Shown here: positions 18,329 through 35,683 of the stretch, in pieces
How the letters are laid out: each line of letters opens with the position of its first letter
How positions within the stretch are numbered: position 1 is the first letter of the stretch
Assembly (NCBI RefSeq): GCF_033954455.1
Contig: NZ_CP121473.1
Location: forward strand, 2,838,501-2,902,500
Direction of reading: 5' to 3'
DNA: 64,000 nucleotides
Source: Thiorhodovibrio litoralis
Lineage (GTDB): Bacteria; Pseudomonadota; Gammaproteobacteria; Chromatiales; Chromatiaceae
Made by a program: the position numbers and the translations under genes
The notes under the pieces: generated by a model
Databases searched by the model: none
Told to the model about the DNA's origin: nothing
Seen by the model: the letters and a program-made list of their open reading frames with translations, nothing else

Positions 18329-18625
18329 TCAAACGCAGCCAGTCGGCTTTGGCAAGCCGCCCCACTTGCAGATCAGCTTCATCGGACCTTTTTTGAAGAT
18401 GTTGTAAAGCTCTTTCGTCGAGACGCTCTGCTTCTTGGCAAAGATGCGAATCGGCGGCACCACGCCATCGTTCTCGTACATCGCCCGCGCCTCGCGGATG
18501 AAGCCCATCACCTGATCGTTCATCTCAAAATCATCTGTGGTGGCAAGCTCTTGCGCCACTTCCTCGCTCCAATCGTCACGATTGACCAAAAATCCCTCAT
18601 TATCAAGGGCAACGCTGATAGTCAT
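18329..18625 (-). CDS. DsrC/TusE-family sulfur carrier protein with two C-terminal cysteines
   Basis: The 98-residue protein has the DsrC/TusE fold signature and ends GGLPKPTGCV. Two cysteines lie in the C-terminal arm, the penultimate residue and one 11 positions earlier (MKLICKWGG), the arrangement of DsrC rather than TusE, which keeps only the penultimate one. DsrC carries sulfur as a persulfide or trisulfide and serves dissimilatory sulfite reductase; TusE serves tRNA 2-thiouridylation. No dsr or tus genes are nearby. The ATG at 18625 is chosen because AGGAG lies seven bases upstream; an in-frame ATG six codons earlier lacks this. A shortened N-terminus makes it slightly smaller than canonical DsrC (about 105-112 residues). 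Confidence 0.88.
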   Translation of the reverse strand: MTISVALDNEGFLVNRDDWSEEVAQELATTDDFEMNDQVMGFIREARAMYENDGVVPPIRIFAKKQSVSTKELYNIFKKGPMKLICKWGGLPKPTGCV

Positions 18626-18878
18626 GAGAAAGCTCCTGAACATTTTTTACTGAGAAATCCAAGCCTCGCGCGAACCCCGCTGCGCCCTTTTTCGATCAAC
18701 GCGCAAAGCCGAGTCGGCGACACCCAAGGACAGTGGAGGCAGAGCCGGCGCATATCCAGCCCTGACTCCCAAGCGCCACGCGGAACTCGGCGCGTTTTCT
18801 TTGGCCGGCTTGATTTGCTCGGCGTACAGTGCTTTCGGTGCATCACGCGGCAGAGACAACCGTAGCTTCTTGAATCGA

Positions 18879-23605: not shown

Positions 23606-23633
23606 GAACTTTTTCAACCAAGTCGATGTCAAT
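23606..23633 (+). promoter_or_regulatory. candidate sigma-E (ECF) autoregulatory promoter of rpoE
   Basis: GAACTT at 23606-23611 followed 17 bases later by TCAAT (23629-23633) fits the sigma-E pattern of an AACTT -35 and a TCnnA-type -10. It sits about 40 bases upstream of the rpoE start codon. Sigma-E operons are commonly autoregulated, so the placement is logical, but the match is by eye only. Confidence 0.45.
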
Positions 23634-23674: not shown

Positions 23675-24247
23675 ATGTCCGAGCGTGAAGTTGATCATGC
23701 CTTGGTGGTCCGGGCCCAGAGTGGTGACCGGCGCGCCTTCGACCTGCTGATGCTCAAATACCAGCAGCGCGTGGCGGGCTTGATCGGGCGTTATTTGCGC
23801 GACAGCGCGGAGGTGCTCGATGTCACTCAGGAGGCCTTTATTAAGGCCTATCGCGCCTTGCCGAACTTCCGTGGCGAGAGTGCGTTTTACACCTGGATTT
23901 ACCGCATTGCGATCAACACAGTCAAAAATCACCTGGTGGCCCAGGGGCGCCGCCCGCCGGGCGACGATGTCGATGCGGAAACGGCCGAGCAGATGGATGC
24001 CGGCGCGCGGCTGCGCGACACCGCCACGCCCGAACGGGAGCTGCTGAGCGATGAGATCGCGCGCACGGTTCAGCGGGCGCTTGATGAATTGCCGGATGAT
24101 TTGCGCACCGCCATCGTGCTGCGCGAGCTTGAAGGCATGAGCTACGAGGAGATTGCCGAGGCCATGGACTGTCCCATTGGAACTGTGCGCTCGCGCATCT
24201 TCCGCGCGCGTGAGGCCATCGACAAGCATTTGCGTCCGCTGCTTTGA
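23675..24247 (+). CDS. rpoE: ECF RNA polymerase sigma factor sigma-E
   Basis: The 190-residue ECF sigma factor has region 2 (VLDVTQEAFIKAYRALPNFR, then FYTWIYRIAINT) that recognises the -10 and melts DNA. A linker and region 4 (YEEIAEAMDCPIGTVRSRIF) that recognises the -35 follow. It directs the envelope-stress response and is held at the membrane by RseA, encoded next. The ATG at 23675 gives the family N-terminus MSEREVDHALV; the frame stays open upstream but the extension is not conserved-looking. It heads rpoE-rseA-rseB-rseC. Confidence 0.97.
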   Translation: MSEREVDHALVVRAQSGDRRAFDLLMLKYQQRVAGLIGRYLRDSAEVLDVTQEAFIKAYRALPNFRGESAFYTWIYRIAINTVKNHLVAQGRRPPGDDVDAETAEQMDAGARLRDTATPERELLSDEIARTVQRALDELPDDLRTAIVLRELEGMSYEEIAEAMDCPIGTVRSRIFRAREAIDKHLRPLL

Positions 24248-24270
24248 ACAGCGCAACCCGACCACCGCAC

Positions 24271-24312
24271 CCTGACAATCGAACCCTGACAATCGAACCC
24301 TGACAATCGAAC
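24271..24312. repeat. three perfect 14-bp tandem repeats between rpoE and rseA
   Basis: CCTGACAATCGAAC is repeated exactly three times head to tail, followed by a decayed fourth copy (TCTAACAACC...). It fills most of the 80-base space between the rpoE stop and the rseA start. The unit is not a multiple of three and the stretch is non-coding. Confidence 0.9.
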
Positions 24313-24327
24313 TCTAACAACCACACA

Positions 24328-25098
24328 ATGACACAGACTCTCGCGCAACAGCGAATTTCGGCTCTGCTCGATCAAGAAATCAGCCACGGCCAGATCGGCG
24401 AGGCTCTTGCGGAATTGGGCGATAACACCGAGCTGCGCGCCAGCTGGGGACGCTACCATTTGATACGCAGTGTCCTGCGCGGAGAGACAGTATCCGCTGA
24501 GTACCAAGGCATTGCCGAGCGCGTCAGTGTGCGCCTGGCGGGGGAGGCGATCTCTCCAGATGCAGCACCGCCAGATGCAGCACTGCCGGAACCGACGCTG
24601 GACGACGAAAACCGGCCTGCGGACCGACGCCGCCGCACCTCAGGCTTCTCCCAAGCCCACAGGTCCAGCCGCCCGCATACCAGACGCGGACTCGCACGCG
24701 CGCGCACCTGGTGGCCGCTAATCGGCGCGGCTGTAGCTGGTCTGATGGTGCTCGGCGTCGTGCTGCGCATGCCCGATGGGCTTGGTCCCAATGCAGCGCC
24801 GGGCGATATGCCAACGGCAGGCGCACCAAGAATTGCGAGCGATGCATCGCCGCTCAAAGCAACGCAGTCTTCCGCCGCTCCTGCGCTCGCCGCGACTGGG
24901 GCACTCGGCACAGCGACCAAAGGTCCGACGGCCTGGCGTTCGAGCTCGGATGCTATCCAGCCTTGGTCCGCGAGCCAGCCGCGCGTCAAAGCCAAGCTCA
25001 ATCACTTGCTTGTCGGACACCAGGACCGTGTCGCCACGGCCAGCATCAAGGGTTTTCTCCCCTATGCCACCCTCGTCGGTTATAACACCCAACCCTGA
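24328..25098 (+). CDS. rseA: sigma-E anti-sigma factor RseA
   Basis: The 256-residue protein has an N-terminal cytoplasmic anti-sigma domain (RISALLDQEISHG..., residues 1-70) of the RseA/MucA type and an Arg-rich linker. A single membrane helix (~132-152, WWPLIGAAVAGLMVLGVVL) and a periplasmic domain follow, ending in the MucA-like FLPYATLVGYNTQP. It binds sigma-E at the membrane and is degraded by regulated proteolysis when outer-membrane proteins misfold. It sits between rpoE and rseB as expected. Confidence 0.9.
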   Translation: MTQTLAQQRISALLDQEISHGQIGEALAELGDNTELRASWGRYHLIRSVLRGETVSAEYQGIAERVSVRLAGEAISPDAAPPDAALPEPTLDDENRPADRRRRTSGFSQAHRSSRPHTRRGLARARTWWPLIGAAVAGLMVLGVVLRMPDGLGPNAAPGDMPTAGAPRIASDASPLKATQSSAAPALAATGALGTATKGPTAWRSSSDAIQPWSASQPRVKAKLNHLLVGHQDRVATASIKGFLPYATLVGYNTQP

Positions 25099-25108
25099 GC
25101 CCCTGGTA

Positions 25109-26332
25109 GTGCGGCGGGGTTGGGGCCAGGTTTCCCTGATCATCTCCCTGGTCACCTCTGGGATCATCAGATTCCTGCTGCTTTGTGTCGCTAGTCCGCT
25201 AATTGCCTTGGCGTCCGCGGCACCCGTTCCCGGTGAAAATTTAGCCGCCGAGCGTCCGTTTGCGTTGCTCGAGCGCATGGCGCAAGCGCTTGAAACAACT
25301 GATTTTGAAGGGACTTTTGTCTATCAGTACGGCAATTCCTTATCGGCCATGCGCGTTGTGCATCGCCTGCGAAACGGCGACTCGCAGGAAAGCCTGCTGA
25401 CACTCAACGGTCCGATCCGCACCATCGGTCGCAACGGTCAGTCCGTGTCTTGTCTGCTCTCCGGAGGGCAGTCGGTGCTGCTGCGTCGCGAGCATCCGTC
25501 TGGGGTTCTTGCTCGGGACAATCCGACCCCGGCGCCGGATTGGCAGGCACTGTCCAAACACTATCGGTTCGGTCTGCTTGAGGCGACACGAGTCGCCGGG
25601 CGCGCGGCGGATGTGGTGGCCATCGCTCCCAGGGATAATCTGCGCTACGGTTACCGTTTCTCAATCGATCGCGCTTCCGGTCTGCCGCTTCGCACCGCGC
25701 TGCTTGACGCGGGCGGACTACCAATTCAGCAACTGATGTTCACCGAGGTACAATTCGGCGCGGAGCCCTCAACAGAAGCGGCAGCCGCTGCACAATCGGC
25801 AGTGTCCTCCGCTCGACAGCCGACCGCCAGGTCGCTTGGCGAGCCCGTTGCTGATCCAGTTGCTGATCCCGTTGCTGAGCCGGGCGGCCTGCCCGCTTTA
25901 GAGACAAATGTCGAAATTGCTGGCGAATCCTCTGGCGTCGCCCCCGATCCGATCCCGCTCACGCCCGCAAAAACCTTGGACAAAAATTGGGAATTCAAAG
26001 AATTACCGGATGGTTTTAATGTAATATCTCACGAATGGATCGACTCAGACGAGGGCGCGCAGCAGGAATACTTTCTGCTCGGTGACGGTCTCGCGTCCGT
26101 GTCGGTCTACGTCGAGCAAAGTGAGCAGCCCGGATTGGCGGGGCAAACCCAGATGGCAGCGATTCACGCCGCCGGCAAATGGCTGGATGGCTATCAGATC
26201 ACCGCAGTCGGTGAAGTGCCGGCAGAGACCGTGACCGCGCTGGTCGATGCGATCAGCAAAAAACCCGGGGGCGAGGAGGGGGCGGCTTGGTCCGCGGCGC
26301 CGGGTGCGTCGCAGCAGGAGCAATCACCATGA
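25109..26332 (+). CDS. rseB: sigma-E factor regulatory protein RseB (MucB)
   Basis: The ~407-residue periplasmic protein begins with a signal peptide (twin Arg, then LIISLVTSGIIRFLLLCVAS, cleavage near ALASA). The MucB/RseB N-terminal lipoprotein-like domain (LERMAQALETTDFEGTFVYQ) and the C-terminal domain ending ITAVGEVPAETVTALVDAIS follow. It shields RseA from DegS. Between the domains is an Ala/Pro/Val/Asp-rich linker with a VADP-type repeat, longer than usual. No ATG fits the signal peptide; the GTG at 25109 is the most sensible start, 10 bases after the rseA stop. Confidence 0.88.
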   Translation: MRRGWGQVSLIISLVTSGIIRFLLLCVASPLIALASAAPVPGENLAAERPFALLERMAQALETTDFEGTFVYQYGNSLSAMRVVHRLRNGDSQESLLTLNGPIRTIGRNGQSVSCLLSGGQSVLLRREHPSGVLARDNPTPAPDWQALSKHYRFGLLEATRVAGRAADVVAIAPRDNLRYGYRFSIDRASGLPLRTALLDAGGLPIQQLMFTEVQFGAEPSTEAAAAAQSAVSSARQPTARSLGEPVADPVADPVAEPGGLPALETNVEIAGESSGVAPDPIPLTPAKTLDKNWEFKELPDGFNVISHEWIDSDEGAQQEYFLLGDGLASVSVYVEQSEQPGLAGQTQMAAIHAAGKWLDGYQITAVGEVPAETVTALVDAISKKPGGEEGAAWSAAPGASQQEQSP

Positions 26333-26847
26333 TCGAGGAAGCCGCCATCGTCGTCGCCGTTCATGGCTCAGATGCAGAGGTCGAGCCTCAGCGACGCGCG
26401 ACCTGTGATCACTGCGGTGTGAAGGGAACTTGCGGCACCTCACTGATCGACCGCTTTTTGGGCCGGCGCCCGCTGCGGCTGCATGTCGAGAATGCCATCG
26501 GTGCGCGCGTGGGCGAGCGGGTCATGATTGGCATGGCCGATGCGGTTTTGCTGCGCGCCGCCGTTGCTGCCTACCTCGTCCCGCTGCTCGGGCTCATTTT
26601 CGGCGCTGCCGTGACGCTCGAGCTGGCGACCCGCTGGCAGTGGCCGGGCGCTGATCTCTGGTCCCTGGCCGGCGGCCTGCTCGGGTTCGCGCTGGCACTG
26701 CGCTGGACTGGCAGCTATAGTCGCCGCCTGCGCGCCAATCCGCATTATCGCCCCACGCTAATTGGGCGCGCTCCGGCCGATGCAAGCGTTGGTGATCGCC
26801 CCAGATCTGCGCGGGTCACTCTGAACCCCGAACTGCCGAAAACCTGA
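26329..26847 (+). CDS. rseC: SoxR-reducing system / RseC family protein
   Basis: The 172-residue protein has an N-terminal soluble part with the RseC cysteine cluster (CDHCGVKGTCGTSLIDRF, residues ~26-43). Two adjacent membrane helices follow (~75-97 and ~105-125), and then a short basic tail. RseC is a small inner-membrane protein encoded with rseA/rseB, linked in E. coli to SoxR reduction. Its ATG overlaps the rseB stop (ATGA) with AGGAG just upstream, so they are translationally coupled. Confidence 0.92.
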   Translation: MIEEAAIVVAVHGSDAEVEPQRRATCDHCGVKGTCGTSLIDRFLGRRPLRLHVENAIGARVGERVMIGMADAVLLRAAVAAYLVPLLGLIFGAAVTLELATRWQWPGADLWSLAGGLLGFALALRWTGSYSRRLRANPHYRPTLIGRAPADASVGDRPRSARVTLNPELPKT

Positions 26848-26876
26848 TCTCCAAACTAACGTGATCTCCAAACTGG
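26845..26876. repeat. 13-bp imperfect duplication at the rseC/next-gene junction
   Basis: TGATCTCCAAACT occurs at the rseC stop codon and again about 18 bases later at the GTG start of the following gene. The second copy provides the first codons of that gene. It looks like a small local duplication at the gene boundary. Confidence 0.6.
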
Positions 26877-28087
26877 CGACGCTGTTCAGGGCACCCAAAA
26901 GGCCCGGCACGGGCATGGCTGACGCGCCTCTGCCAGAGCGGCGGCGCAAGCGCTTTTCACTCTCTGGAACCATTGGCTTCGAGCGCCGCATCGCCACCGA
27001 TCAGCAGCGCATCGCCGATCAGGTGCTGGCCGTGCTGCCACCGGATCAGTTCCGCGCGCTTTACTTGTGCGGGAGTTATGGTCGCGGGGAAGGGGTACGT
27101 TTGCGCGGCGCTGATGGCAAGGAGATTGCAGAGCGTTACCAGTATGCCGTGGTGCTCGGTCGTACCGACCCGGCACTGCGCGGGGCCGTGCAAGACACCT
27201 TGGGACAACTGGCCGCGACACTGTCGGCCGCCACCGGCGTGGCGATTCATTTTCGGCTGTTTCGCGAGGAACGGCTGCGGGATTTTCCGCTCTCCTATCC
27301 GCAGGCCGATCTGCGCTGGAGTGGTCGCCTGCTGCGCGGCCCCCCGGAGGTTGTCGCGCAAATGACAGAGAAGCCATTCGAGCATCTCGCGCCCGGCGAG
27401 ATGCTGTGGCAGCATGTCCAGCATGGGCTGGGTCTGCTGCACAATCAGGAGCAGTTGCGCCAGGGCGCCAGCCTGGCAGAGGGCGAGCGGCTGGCATTCT
27501 TCCGCCACCTGATCCGCACCGTCCTGATTTGCGGCGATCTGCGCCTGGCCGTTGTCGGGCGCTATCATCCCGCGCATGCCGAGAAGCTTGCGCGACTTGA
27601 GGCGCTGGACCAGCGCCACCACCGCAAGTTCATGACGCTCTATGCGCTGGCGCACCAGGCCTATGCGGACATGGATGTCAGAGGCTTTGCCGATGGACAT
27701 CCGCTTGACTGGCAGGCGCGGGTGTCCTGGCTGTGGTTGGATTCTCTGCGGCGCTTCGAGCAATGGCGGCGCGGTGGACGCGTGCTGCCGAGTTGGGAGT
27801 ATTACTGTCGCTCGCGGCCCGCCAAGGGCCAGGGGTGGAACTCCCGCCTTGGCGAGCGTCTGACGAGCAACTTGGCCAGCTTCGGTGCTGCCAGCCTCAA
27901 AGCCCAGCCAGGGTGGTCGCTGCGTCACCCGCGCGAGCGCCTGATTGGCGCCATGCCCTTGTTGCTGAGCGGTCCGCAGACAGCGCCCGAGCCGGCGGTG
28001 GCCGCTGCGCTGTCACTGCCACCCGGCACCAGCTGGCCGCGCACGGTCGAGGCGTTTCTGCGTCTGTGCGAGAGTCACAGCGATTGA
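26861..28087 (+). CDS. nucleotidyltransferase-like protein with degenerate catalytic site
   Basis: The 408-residue protein has a nucleotidyltransferase-type turn CGSYGRGEG (~71-79). The following strand that normally carries the Asp-x-Asp metal site reads YQYAVVLG, and the later acidic position reads IHFRLF, so the expected metal-binding aspartates are absent. The remainder is helical, with many Trp, Arg and His residues and no recognised domain. The GTG start at 26861 lies inside a small duplication 13 bp after rseC; an ATG at MADAPLPERRR (~25 codons in) is an alternative. It is inserted between rseC and degP in the sigma-E cluster. Function unknown; it may be a pseudo-enzyme or binding protein. 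Confidence 0.6.
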   Translation: MISKLATLFRAPKRPGTGMADAPLPERRRKRFSLSGTIGFERRIATDQQRIADQVLAVLPPDQFRALYLCGSYGRGEGVRLRGADGKEIAERYQYAVVLGRTDPALRGAVQDTLGQLAATLSAATGVAIHFRLFREERLRDFPLSYPQADLRWSGRLLRGPPEVVAQMTEKPFEHLAPGEMLWQHVQHGLGLLHNQEQLRQGASLAEGERLAFFRHLIRTVLICGDLRLAVVGRYHPAHAEKLARLEALDQRHHRKFMTLYALAHQAYADMDVRGFADGHPLDWQARVSWLWLDSLRRFEQWRRGGRVLPSWEYYCRSRPAKGQGWNSRLGERLTSNLASFGAASLKAQPGWSLRHPRERLIGAMPLLLSGPQTAPEPAVAAALSLPPGTSWPRTVEAFLRLCESHSD

Positions 28088-28181
28088 CGCCAGTCCGGCG
28101 AAGGGCGATTCCCGCGTCATCATCGGCGAATCATCTTGCCGAATCCTCACCCAGAATCATCACTTGTCCGGGCTGAGTCGG

Positions 28182-28187
28182 TATAAT
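28182..28187 (+). promoter_or_regulatory. candidate -10 box upstream of degP
   Basis: A perfect TATAAT lies about 90 bases upstream of the degP start, in the 190-base gap after the preceding gene. A TTGTCC lies only 12 bases upstream, too close for a standard -35, so the assignment rests on the -10 alone. I saw no sigma-E type AACTT box in this gap. Confidence 0.3.
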
Positions 28188-28277: not shown

Positions 28278-29801
28278 ATGAATTTTTGTTGCTCGTTCGT
28301 CGCCCCACCGGCTCGCGGTCTGGGCTCGAGGCTGGCTTTGGGCCTGGTCCTGCTGTTTGTGCTCGCTGGTGCCTGGGCCGATACCCTGCCCGACTTCACC
28401 GGACTGGTCGAGCGCAACGGTCCGGCAGTGGTCAACATCAGCAGCTCGCAGACGACACCAGGCGAGATCCCCGGGCTCGGCGGCGAGGGCGACCTGCCGC
28501 CCGAGGACAGCCCGCTGTATGACTTTTTCCGCCGCTTCTTCGGCGACGAGGGTGAGTTTCCCGATTTCGGCGAGGAAGGGCGCTCGCTGGGCTCGGGCTT
28601 CCTGATTTCAGCCGATGGCTATGTGGTCACCAATGCCCATGTGGTCGAGCTGGCCGAAGAGATCATCGTGCGCACCAGCGACCGACGGGAGTTCGTCGCC
28701 AGCGTGGTCGGGGCCGACGAGCGCAGCGATATCGCGCTGCTGAAGCTGGACGCCAAGGATCTGCCACGGGTGGAAATTGGCAGCGCGACCGACCTCAAGG
28801 TCGGTGAATGGGTGCTGGCCATCGGCTCGCCTTTTGGGTTTGAGCATTCGGCAACCGCCGGCATCGTCAGCGCCAAGGGGCGCAGCCTGCCGAGCGAGAA
28901 CTATGTGCCTTTCATCCAGACCGATGTCGCCATCAACCCGGGCAACTCCGGCGGGCCTTTGTTCGATCTCGATGGGCGGGTGATCGGCGTCAATTCCCAG
29001 ATCTATAGCCGCACCGGCGGCTTCATGGGGCTGTCGTTCGCCATTCCCATCGAGGTGGTCATGGACGTGGTCGAGCAGCTACGCACCCAGGGTCGGGTCA
29101 CGCGCGGTTGGCTCGGGGTGCTGATTCAAGACGTCACCCGCGAGCTGGCTGAAACCTTCGGACTGCAGCGACCGCGGGGCGCCTTGGTGGCCCAGGTGAT
29201 TCCCGGCAGCCCAGCGGCAAATGGCGGCCTGCGCGCGGGCGATGTGATTCTGAGCTTTGACGGCCGGGAGGTGGCCACTTCCGGTGACCTGCCACCACTG
29301 GTGGGCATGGCCAAGGTGGGGGATCAGGCGCAGATTGAGCTGTTGCGCGGCGGCGAGCGGCAGGAGCTTGATGTTCTGCTCGCGGCGCTGCCCGAGGACG
29401 GCCAGACAAGCATGGCTGGACCGGTTCCGGAAGCGTCCAACGCCAATGCGATCGGCCTGGTGCTTGAGAATCTGAGCGCAGAGCAGCGCGAACGCTTCGA
29501 ACTGGCCGAGGGCGGGGTGCTGATCGAGGACATCGAGCCAGGCCCGGCTCAAAGCGCCGGTCTACGCCCTGGGGATGTGATTCTGGCCTTCGATGGCGTC
29601 GACGTGCGCGACCTGGCGCATTTTCGCGAGCTGCTCGCAGCAGCCGAGCCGCAGCGGCCTGTGGCGGTGCTGATACAACGCGGTGCCGGGCGCATGTTCT
29701 ATCCCTTGCGCATTCCTCCTTTGGACGCGCCCGCATCGAGCATGCCCGAGGAGAACGCCAGCGCCGCGCCCGCCCCAGCCAATGGCGGTCACTCCGAGTA
29801 G
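28278..29801 (+). CDS. degP: Do-family periplasmic serine protease (DegP/MucD)
   Basis: The 507-residue protein has a signal peptide (hydrophobic run ~17-33, cleavage near GAWA-DT), a trypsin-like domain and two PDZ domains. The catalytic triad is visible: His in VTNAHVVE, Asp in [10 protein letters not shown], Ser in [11 protein letters not shown]. The first PDZ runs ~265-365 and the second ~395-485. It degrades or refolds misfolded envelope proteins and is a typical sigma-E target; its place right behind rpoE-rseABC, as mucD in Pseudomonas, fits. lepA starts 34 bases downstream. Confidence 0.95.
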
Positions 29802-35599: not shown

Positions 35600-35662
35600 A
35601 ACCCAGTCGCATCGGCAGAGAATCCAGTTTCATCGGCAAAGAATCCAGTTGCATCGGTAAAG
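35600..35662 (+). repeat. three 21-bp tandem repeats ahead of pdxJ
   Basis: Three near-identical 21-base units (consensus AATCCAGTTGCATCGGCAAAG) lie head to tail at 35600-35620, 35621-35641 and 35642-35662. In the pdxJ frame they encode the heptad NPVASxK. The unit keeps the frame and contains no stop, so the repeats may be translated as an N-terminal extension of PdxJ if an upstream ATG at 35585 is used. Confidence 0.85.
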
Positions 35663-35683
35663 AATTCAATGGAAAGCCAAATC

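Follow-up and report, generated by a model that had tools for sequence, protein, structure and literature searches.

The window, a 64,000-nucleotide stretch of the single 5.47 Mb contig that makes up the Thiorhodovibrio litoralis genome, contains an rpoE-rseABC-degP locus whose genes are all on the plus strand. In order these are rpoE (23675..24247; TIGR02939, 4e-93), rseA (24328..25098, identified by a family-model match), an ORF holding rseB (24776..26332), rseC (26329..26847, its model matches starting from the ATG at 26329) and degP, encoding a Do-family protease (28278..29801; TIGR02037, 8e-144). lepA is located further downstream, beyond degP. As the rseB domains occupy only residues 163–493 of their ORF, the true start of rseB lies further inside it. 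Between rpoE and rseA, the stretch 24255–24333 contains short 14- and 28-nt tandem repeats.

Between rseC and degP lies an additional gene (26861..28087, plus strand), referred to here as X. Its ORF is uninterrupted, starts with GTG and encodes 408 amino acids. The ORF, an alignment and a predicted fold together identify the product as a protein with an AadA-like nucleotidyltransferase fold that has lost its catalytic acids. A first-pass annotation, made from the DNA letters, had placed a 408-residue protein with a GSYGRGEG turn between rseC and degP, and both the ORF and the model matches of the neighbours agree with it. X is not a chance ORF, as a 67–73% identical protein is encoded at the same place in three other genomes. 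A wrongly assigned start was considered and ruled out: homologous starts agree, being ATG at the corresponding place in two sister genomes and GTG/ATG in a third. The X start follows the rseC stop at a distance of 13 nt, and a 17-nt tandem duplication (26841..26874, plus strand) spans both. Residues 1–18 (26861–26914) form a short basic N-terminal extension of low model confidence; its outline is common to four close proteins of the group described below and is missing from most active-type relatives (alignment A1).

Upstream of rpoE is a candidate sigma-E-type promoter, GAACTT-N15-TGTCAA (23606..23632, plus strand), whose hexamers are identical in four genomes and which, as an exact match, occurs only here in the window genome. 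The element, which we take to resemble sigma-E promoters, was chosen by comparing the aligned upstream sequences of the four genomes and thus not blindly. The initial expression for sigma-E-type promoters gave zero matches in the upstream regions, and an E. coli-like sigma-E pattern gave one match in the window, away from rpoE and X, where 2.79 are expected by chance. The X–degP gap contains GTATAAT (28181..28187, plus strand), a candidate degP promoter element that is present in this gap in four of four genomes with the rseC-X-degP order; degP may therefore own a promoter while X would be read from the rpoE unit. We infer that X is co-transcribed with the rpoE unit, and RpoE, RseABC and X are probably co-produced. 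Elsewhere in the window, three 21-nt repeats (35603–35665) are found at the 5' end of an ORF that is presumably pdxJ-like, and a small minus-strand ORF (18329–18643) encodes what we take to be a DsrC/TusE-family protein.

Family models do not recognise X: there were zero matches in Pfam (E ≤ 10), NCBIfam (E ≤ 1), PADLOC (E ≤ 10) and PDB sequences (E ≤ 10). Fifteen relatives (alignment A2) searched against Pfam matched three families with one member each, the best relevant one being NTP_transf_2 at E 0.12, and a profile of the fifteen found one de novo design in the PDB (E 0.68). An FAD-dehydrogenase NCBIfam model, matched by 4 of the 15 (best E 0.0044), was taken as chance. The AlphaFold model of X has a mean pLDDT of 90.4 (94.6 for an active-type relative), and its best structural match by VIA-align is AadA (Z 13.7, rmsd 3.8, 226 residues), which is also the best match of the active-type relative (Z 13.3, rmsd 3.5, 226 residues). 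Foldseek against the PDB returned nothing at E ≤ 0.001, the best hits being HalB at 1.1e-3 and then AAD(9). The earlier proposal that X is nucleotidyltransferase-like is thus borne out by the predicted fold and by a family in which the catalytic acids are kept elsewhere.

Counting the window genome each time, relatives of X were found by protein search in 10 of 92 related genomes and by profile in 23/210 genomes of the order (G008 and G100 being counted on the strength of remnants), 4/369 drawn from the class and 2/398 drawn from the phylum. Scanning genome contigs with the single protein yielded no confirmed relative among 91 stretches. A profile scan of named contigs gave 152 loci, of which 80 were retained; they range over Chromatiaceae, other Pseudomonadota, Verrucomicrobiota, Planctomycetota, Cloacimonadota and others. 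This AadA-like family (L059–L137, for example L062:7986–9161 and L113:7992–9119) is widespread and has no convincing Pfam or NCBIfam match. The window genome itself has no paralogue able to supply the activity, the sole match at E ≤ 10 being X.

Residue counts were made on 86 distinct proteins, that is 101 sequences (21 + 80) minus 14 identical ones and minus L058, which comes from the same genome as G006. The copy in G048, which has an internal stop, was excluded from the G set; its contig is present as a cut row of 256 residues (L067). Six of the 86 form what is called here the sigma-E set: four are encoded between rseC and degP (in G000, G001, G002 and G006), a fifth directly before degP (G019) and the sixth beside nadB (G021). 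The other 80 are the relatives outside it.

X keeps the turn of the nucleotidyltransferase domain, GSYGRGEG (residues 71–78; 27071..27094, plus strand), and lacks the acids that should accompany it. In the alignment, R92-Y93-Q94 (27134..27142, plus strand) stands in place of D-x-D, and H130 (27248..27250, plus strand) in place of the third catalytic carboxylate. It had been claimed that Asp-x-Asp is replaced by Tyr-Gln-Tyr; the loss of the acids stands, and the register was one residue off, as Tyr-Gln-Tyr is residues 93–95 and the D-x-D columns hold Arg92 and Gln94. Aligning the catalytic positions, as had been proposed, places acids at all three columns in 71/80 of the relatives and in none of the three in X. 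The remaining 9/80 have two acids, eight reading N-x-D...D and one D-x-D...N. The first-pass annotation had set homologues with intact catalytic residues against a pseudoenzyme reading. They do exist in the wider family; as they lie mostly in polysaccharide loci, they show the direction of change and do not refute that reading.

The loss extends to the whole sigma-E set. At the D-x-D and third-acid columns the window protein reads R-Y-Q/H, those of G001 and G002 C-Y-E/R, G006 R-Y-D/H, G019 G-Y-A/Q and G021 G-Y-E/T. Thus, the first and third acids are lost in 6/6 and the second in 2/6 (window and G019). In 34 columns, 93% or more of the 80 relatives share a single residue; 16 of these columns are unchanged in all six proteins, and 14 are conserved in no more than two of them. 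These 14 include the N (kept in 0/6) and the R (kept in 1/6) of an NRG motif and a lysine that is invariant in the 80 relatives and kept in 0/6. From these residues, X is likely to be inactive as a nucleotidyltransferase.

It is also conceivable, and in our judgement improbable, that X remains an active enzyme of altered chemistry, the acid at position 91 or the retained second one sustaining a transfer that is slower or of another kind. Position 91, directly next to where the first acid was lost, carries an acid in 5/6 of the sigma-E set and in 0/80 of the others, which might stand in for the missing one; the second acid (D or E) is retained in four of the six; YGRGEG and E77 are retained throughout, except for G74A in G019. 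In addition, the eight distant relatives with N-x-D...D indicate that the family tolerates some variation of the first acid. However, with an acid at 91 the i,i+2 spacing of D-x-D is still broken, the third acid is replaced in every member (H, R, R, H, Q, T), and neither the window protein nor that of G019 has any of the three left. All six have likewise lost the N of NRG and the invariant K, and five the R of NRG. A misregistered D-x-D had been considered separately and rejected for the same two reasons, the wrong spacing of the acid at 91 and the loss of the third acid, and it is retained here only as part of this alternative.

A protein that has lost its active site may be a passenger that is decaying and will in time disappear from the genome. 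Decay does occur in the family: in G008 and G100 (loci L010 and L040) all that is left of an active-type X gene is a C-terminal part carrying an in-frame stop, and the G048 copy has its internal stop. The catalytic loss itself and the long branches of the G021 and G019 proteins (1.04 and 0.94) would fit this reading as well. Against it, the ORF is open in all six sigma-E-set genomes, the predicted model of X is well folded, and pairwise dN/dS of X (four genomes, six pairs) is 0.141–0.231, within the range of rseB (0.147–0.224) and rseC (0.081–0.213); the values for degP and rseA are 0.106–0.134 and 0.251–0.392. In most comparisons dS is close to 1 or higher; for G001–G002, which is the pair with the least saturation (dS 0.49), dN/dS of X is 0.141. 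X therefore looks to be under constraint, and decay is a very unlikely explanation. The G008 and G100 remnants adjoin a nucleotidyl transferase-hexapeptide gene.

The surroundings of the relatives point to where X came from. Outside the sigma-E set, 76/79 named loci have at least one of five polysaccharide genes within 8 kb, and a family-2 glycosyltransferase on the same strand lies less than 350 nt away in 49/79, 350–2500 nt away in 20/79 and is absent within 2.5 kb in 10/79. The glycosyltransferases beside other Chromatiaceae X genes are 69–83% identical to the probe; those in Verrucomicrobiota are approximately 35–45% identical, so that the glycosyltransferases may not all be one subfamily. 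A close glycosyltransferase was not found in any of the six sigma-E-set genomes or in G017, which give at most weak generic matches (G019 is 84% complete). The gene tree unites the six proteins in one clade (100/99), whose sister is the G017 protein (97/84), followed by five Thiohalocapsa-type proteins. The G017 protein reads D-Y-D...E and is encoded outside the rpoE locus of its genome. In a LepA host tree the six hosts are not one clade in the best tree, and enforcing their grouping is not rejected (p-AU 0.403), so that its shape is compatible with the gene tree. Descent of X from a nucleotidyltransferase of polysaccharide loci is, on this evidence, very probable. The loss of acids is a clade-wide disarming that accompanies the change of locus, and the loss of the partner, relocation and catalytic loss, each occurring once, make an economical story.

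The position of X was compared across genomes. From 194 genomes, 107 rseC places were taken among the matches listed, six of them with degP on another contig, and 101 family genomes with rseC and degP on one contig and strand were compared. This leaves aside second rseC places within a genome, genomes with no listed degP place, and G096 and G111, in which the two genes are on different contigs. Among the matches listed, rseC and degP are directly adjacent without X in 97/101, with a gap of −6 to 465 nt; X is thus not a general component of rpoE operons. In the four genomes with X in between, the distance is 1376–1516 nt. Conservation of the rseC-X-degP order in related genera had been suggested as a check, and the outcome is divided: the order is kept in four genomes of two genera, and the other 97 compared run without X at that position.

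The remaining two members are arranged differently. In G019, X directly precedes degP and overlaps its start by 20 nt (by the ORF calls), on a contig other than that of rpoE-rseABC; on the latter contig a HemN-type gene comes after rseC. In G021, which is 99% complete, RpoE has no match and degP is elsewhere; X lies beside nadB, which flanks rpoE in other sigma-E-set genomes, and next to an HDOD-domain response regulator. At L015:8080–9000 of G021 the rpoE-rseABC block is apparently gone from between nadB and X, and the gap, judged by eye from its sequence, seems to hold the remnant of a transposase. The six genes seem to trace to one locus, with the full order kept in four. Since X persists in G021 without an RpoE match and sits with degP apart from rseC in G019, the tie to sigma-E is not strict; by G021, X can outlive detectable RpoE.

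The reading we favour, held as a whole at slightly less than even confidence, is that of a former enzyme retained as a sigma-E-operon pseudoenzyme with a binding role. The ancestor of X would have been a nucleotidyltransferase of polysaccharide clusters, usually neighbouring a family-2 glycosyltransferase. One Chromatiaceae lineage would have lost this partner; the gene would then have been placed between rseC and degP in the common ancestor of the window genus, Rhabdochromatium and two more genera, after which its catalytic centre was dismantled. X would now be a folded cytoplasmic protein. Through its remaining cleft and its helical domain it would bind a nucleotide, the precursor of a glycan or another protein and, expressed together with the operon, would serve envelope-stress signalling as a sensor or scaffold. 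Such a binding function in the stress response is our best guess from the retention of X, its disarming and its embedding in the operon, and a role tied to sigma-E, taken by itself, is proposed tentatively, as close to an even call. More specifically, and rather unlikely as it stands, the pocket could sense how much of an envelope precursor, nucleotide-activated or lipid-linked, is available and signal to RseC, RpoE or DegP, giving a lineage-specific cytoplasmic arm of the sigma-E system.

Retention could instead reflect service in a polysaccharide or other pathway, with the sigma-E locus as a convenient expression site. This possibility is doubtful and still to be taken seriously, given the polysaccharide genes in 76 of 79 relatives' named loci, the survival of X in G021 beside an HDOD-domain response regulator with no RpoE detected, and the operons that run without X in 97/101 compared genomes (among the matches listed). 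Against it, X stays between rseC and degP in 4/6 genomes and beside degP in a fifth. Were X a cytoplasmic arm of the sigma-E system, living genomes would show the steps by which it arose: the paired enzyme, the solo enzyme (G017), the disarmed operon protein and the disarmed protein that has outlived RpoE (G021). With relatives at the earlier steps alive, the birth of a pseudoenzyme regulator would be testable through paired, solo and operon forms. The rpoE-rseABC-degP operon is much studied, and here a dismantled enzyme is fixed in a slot that is usually empty; no description of a gene like X in rpoE operons, or of the glycosyltransferase-paired family, was found in the open PMC literature.

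Compared with the known rpoE-rseABC-degP (algU-mucABCD) system, the window has the usual genes in their usual order and differs by the extra gene between rseC and degP, which 97/101 genomes compared lack among the matches listed. With respect to the pol-beta-like superfamily, X has the nucleotidyltransferase fold according to its predicted model (pLDDT 90.4; AadA Z 13.7), whereas of the G[GS] turn, D-x-D and third acid it keeps only the turn, G71-S72. AadA, or ANT(3'')(9) (PDB 5g4a, 6fzb and 7uy4), is, like X, a nucleotidyltransferase domain followed by a helical C-terminal domain, a likeness of fold only. The two are 12% identical; X, at 408 residues, has approximately 100 extra C-terminal residues, has lost the catalytic acids and has a gene context unrelated to drug resistance. 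GlnE domains match X at Z 9.3 and 8.6, and GlnD of the window genome reads GGYGRAE...SDIDLL where relatives of X read GGYGRGEGG...NDYDY. However, the GlnD/GlnE family (PF08335) has no match in X at E ≤ 10, and X is without a second or regulatory domain. MNT/HEPN toxin–antitoxin systems have a separate HEPN toxin gene, which is absent beside X (its neighbours are rseC and degP), and the helical domain of X is fused. Finally, the dimerisation domains of NF45/NF90 (PDB 4atb) share the nucleotidyltransferase fold of X (Z 8.1 over 114 residues), and NF45 is an inactive binding module; these are eukaryotic RNA-binding partners, and the likeness seen is one of fold.
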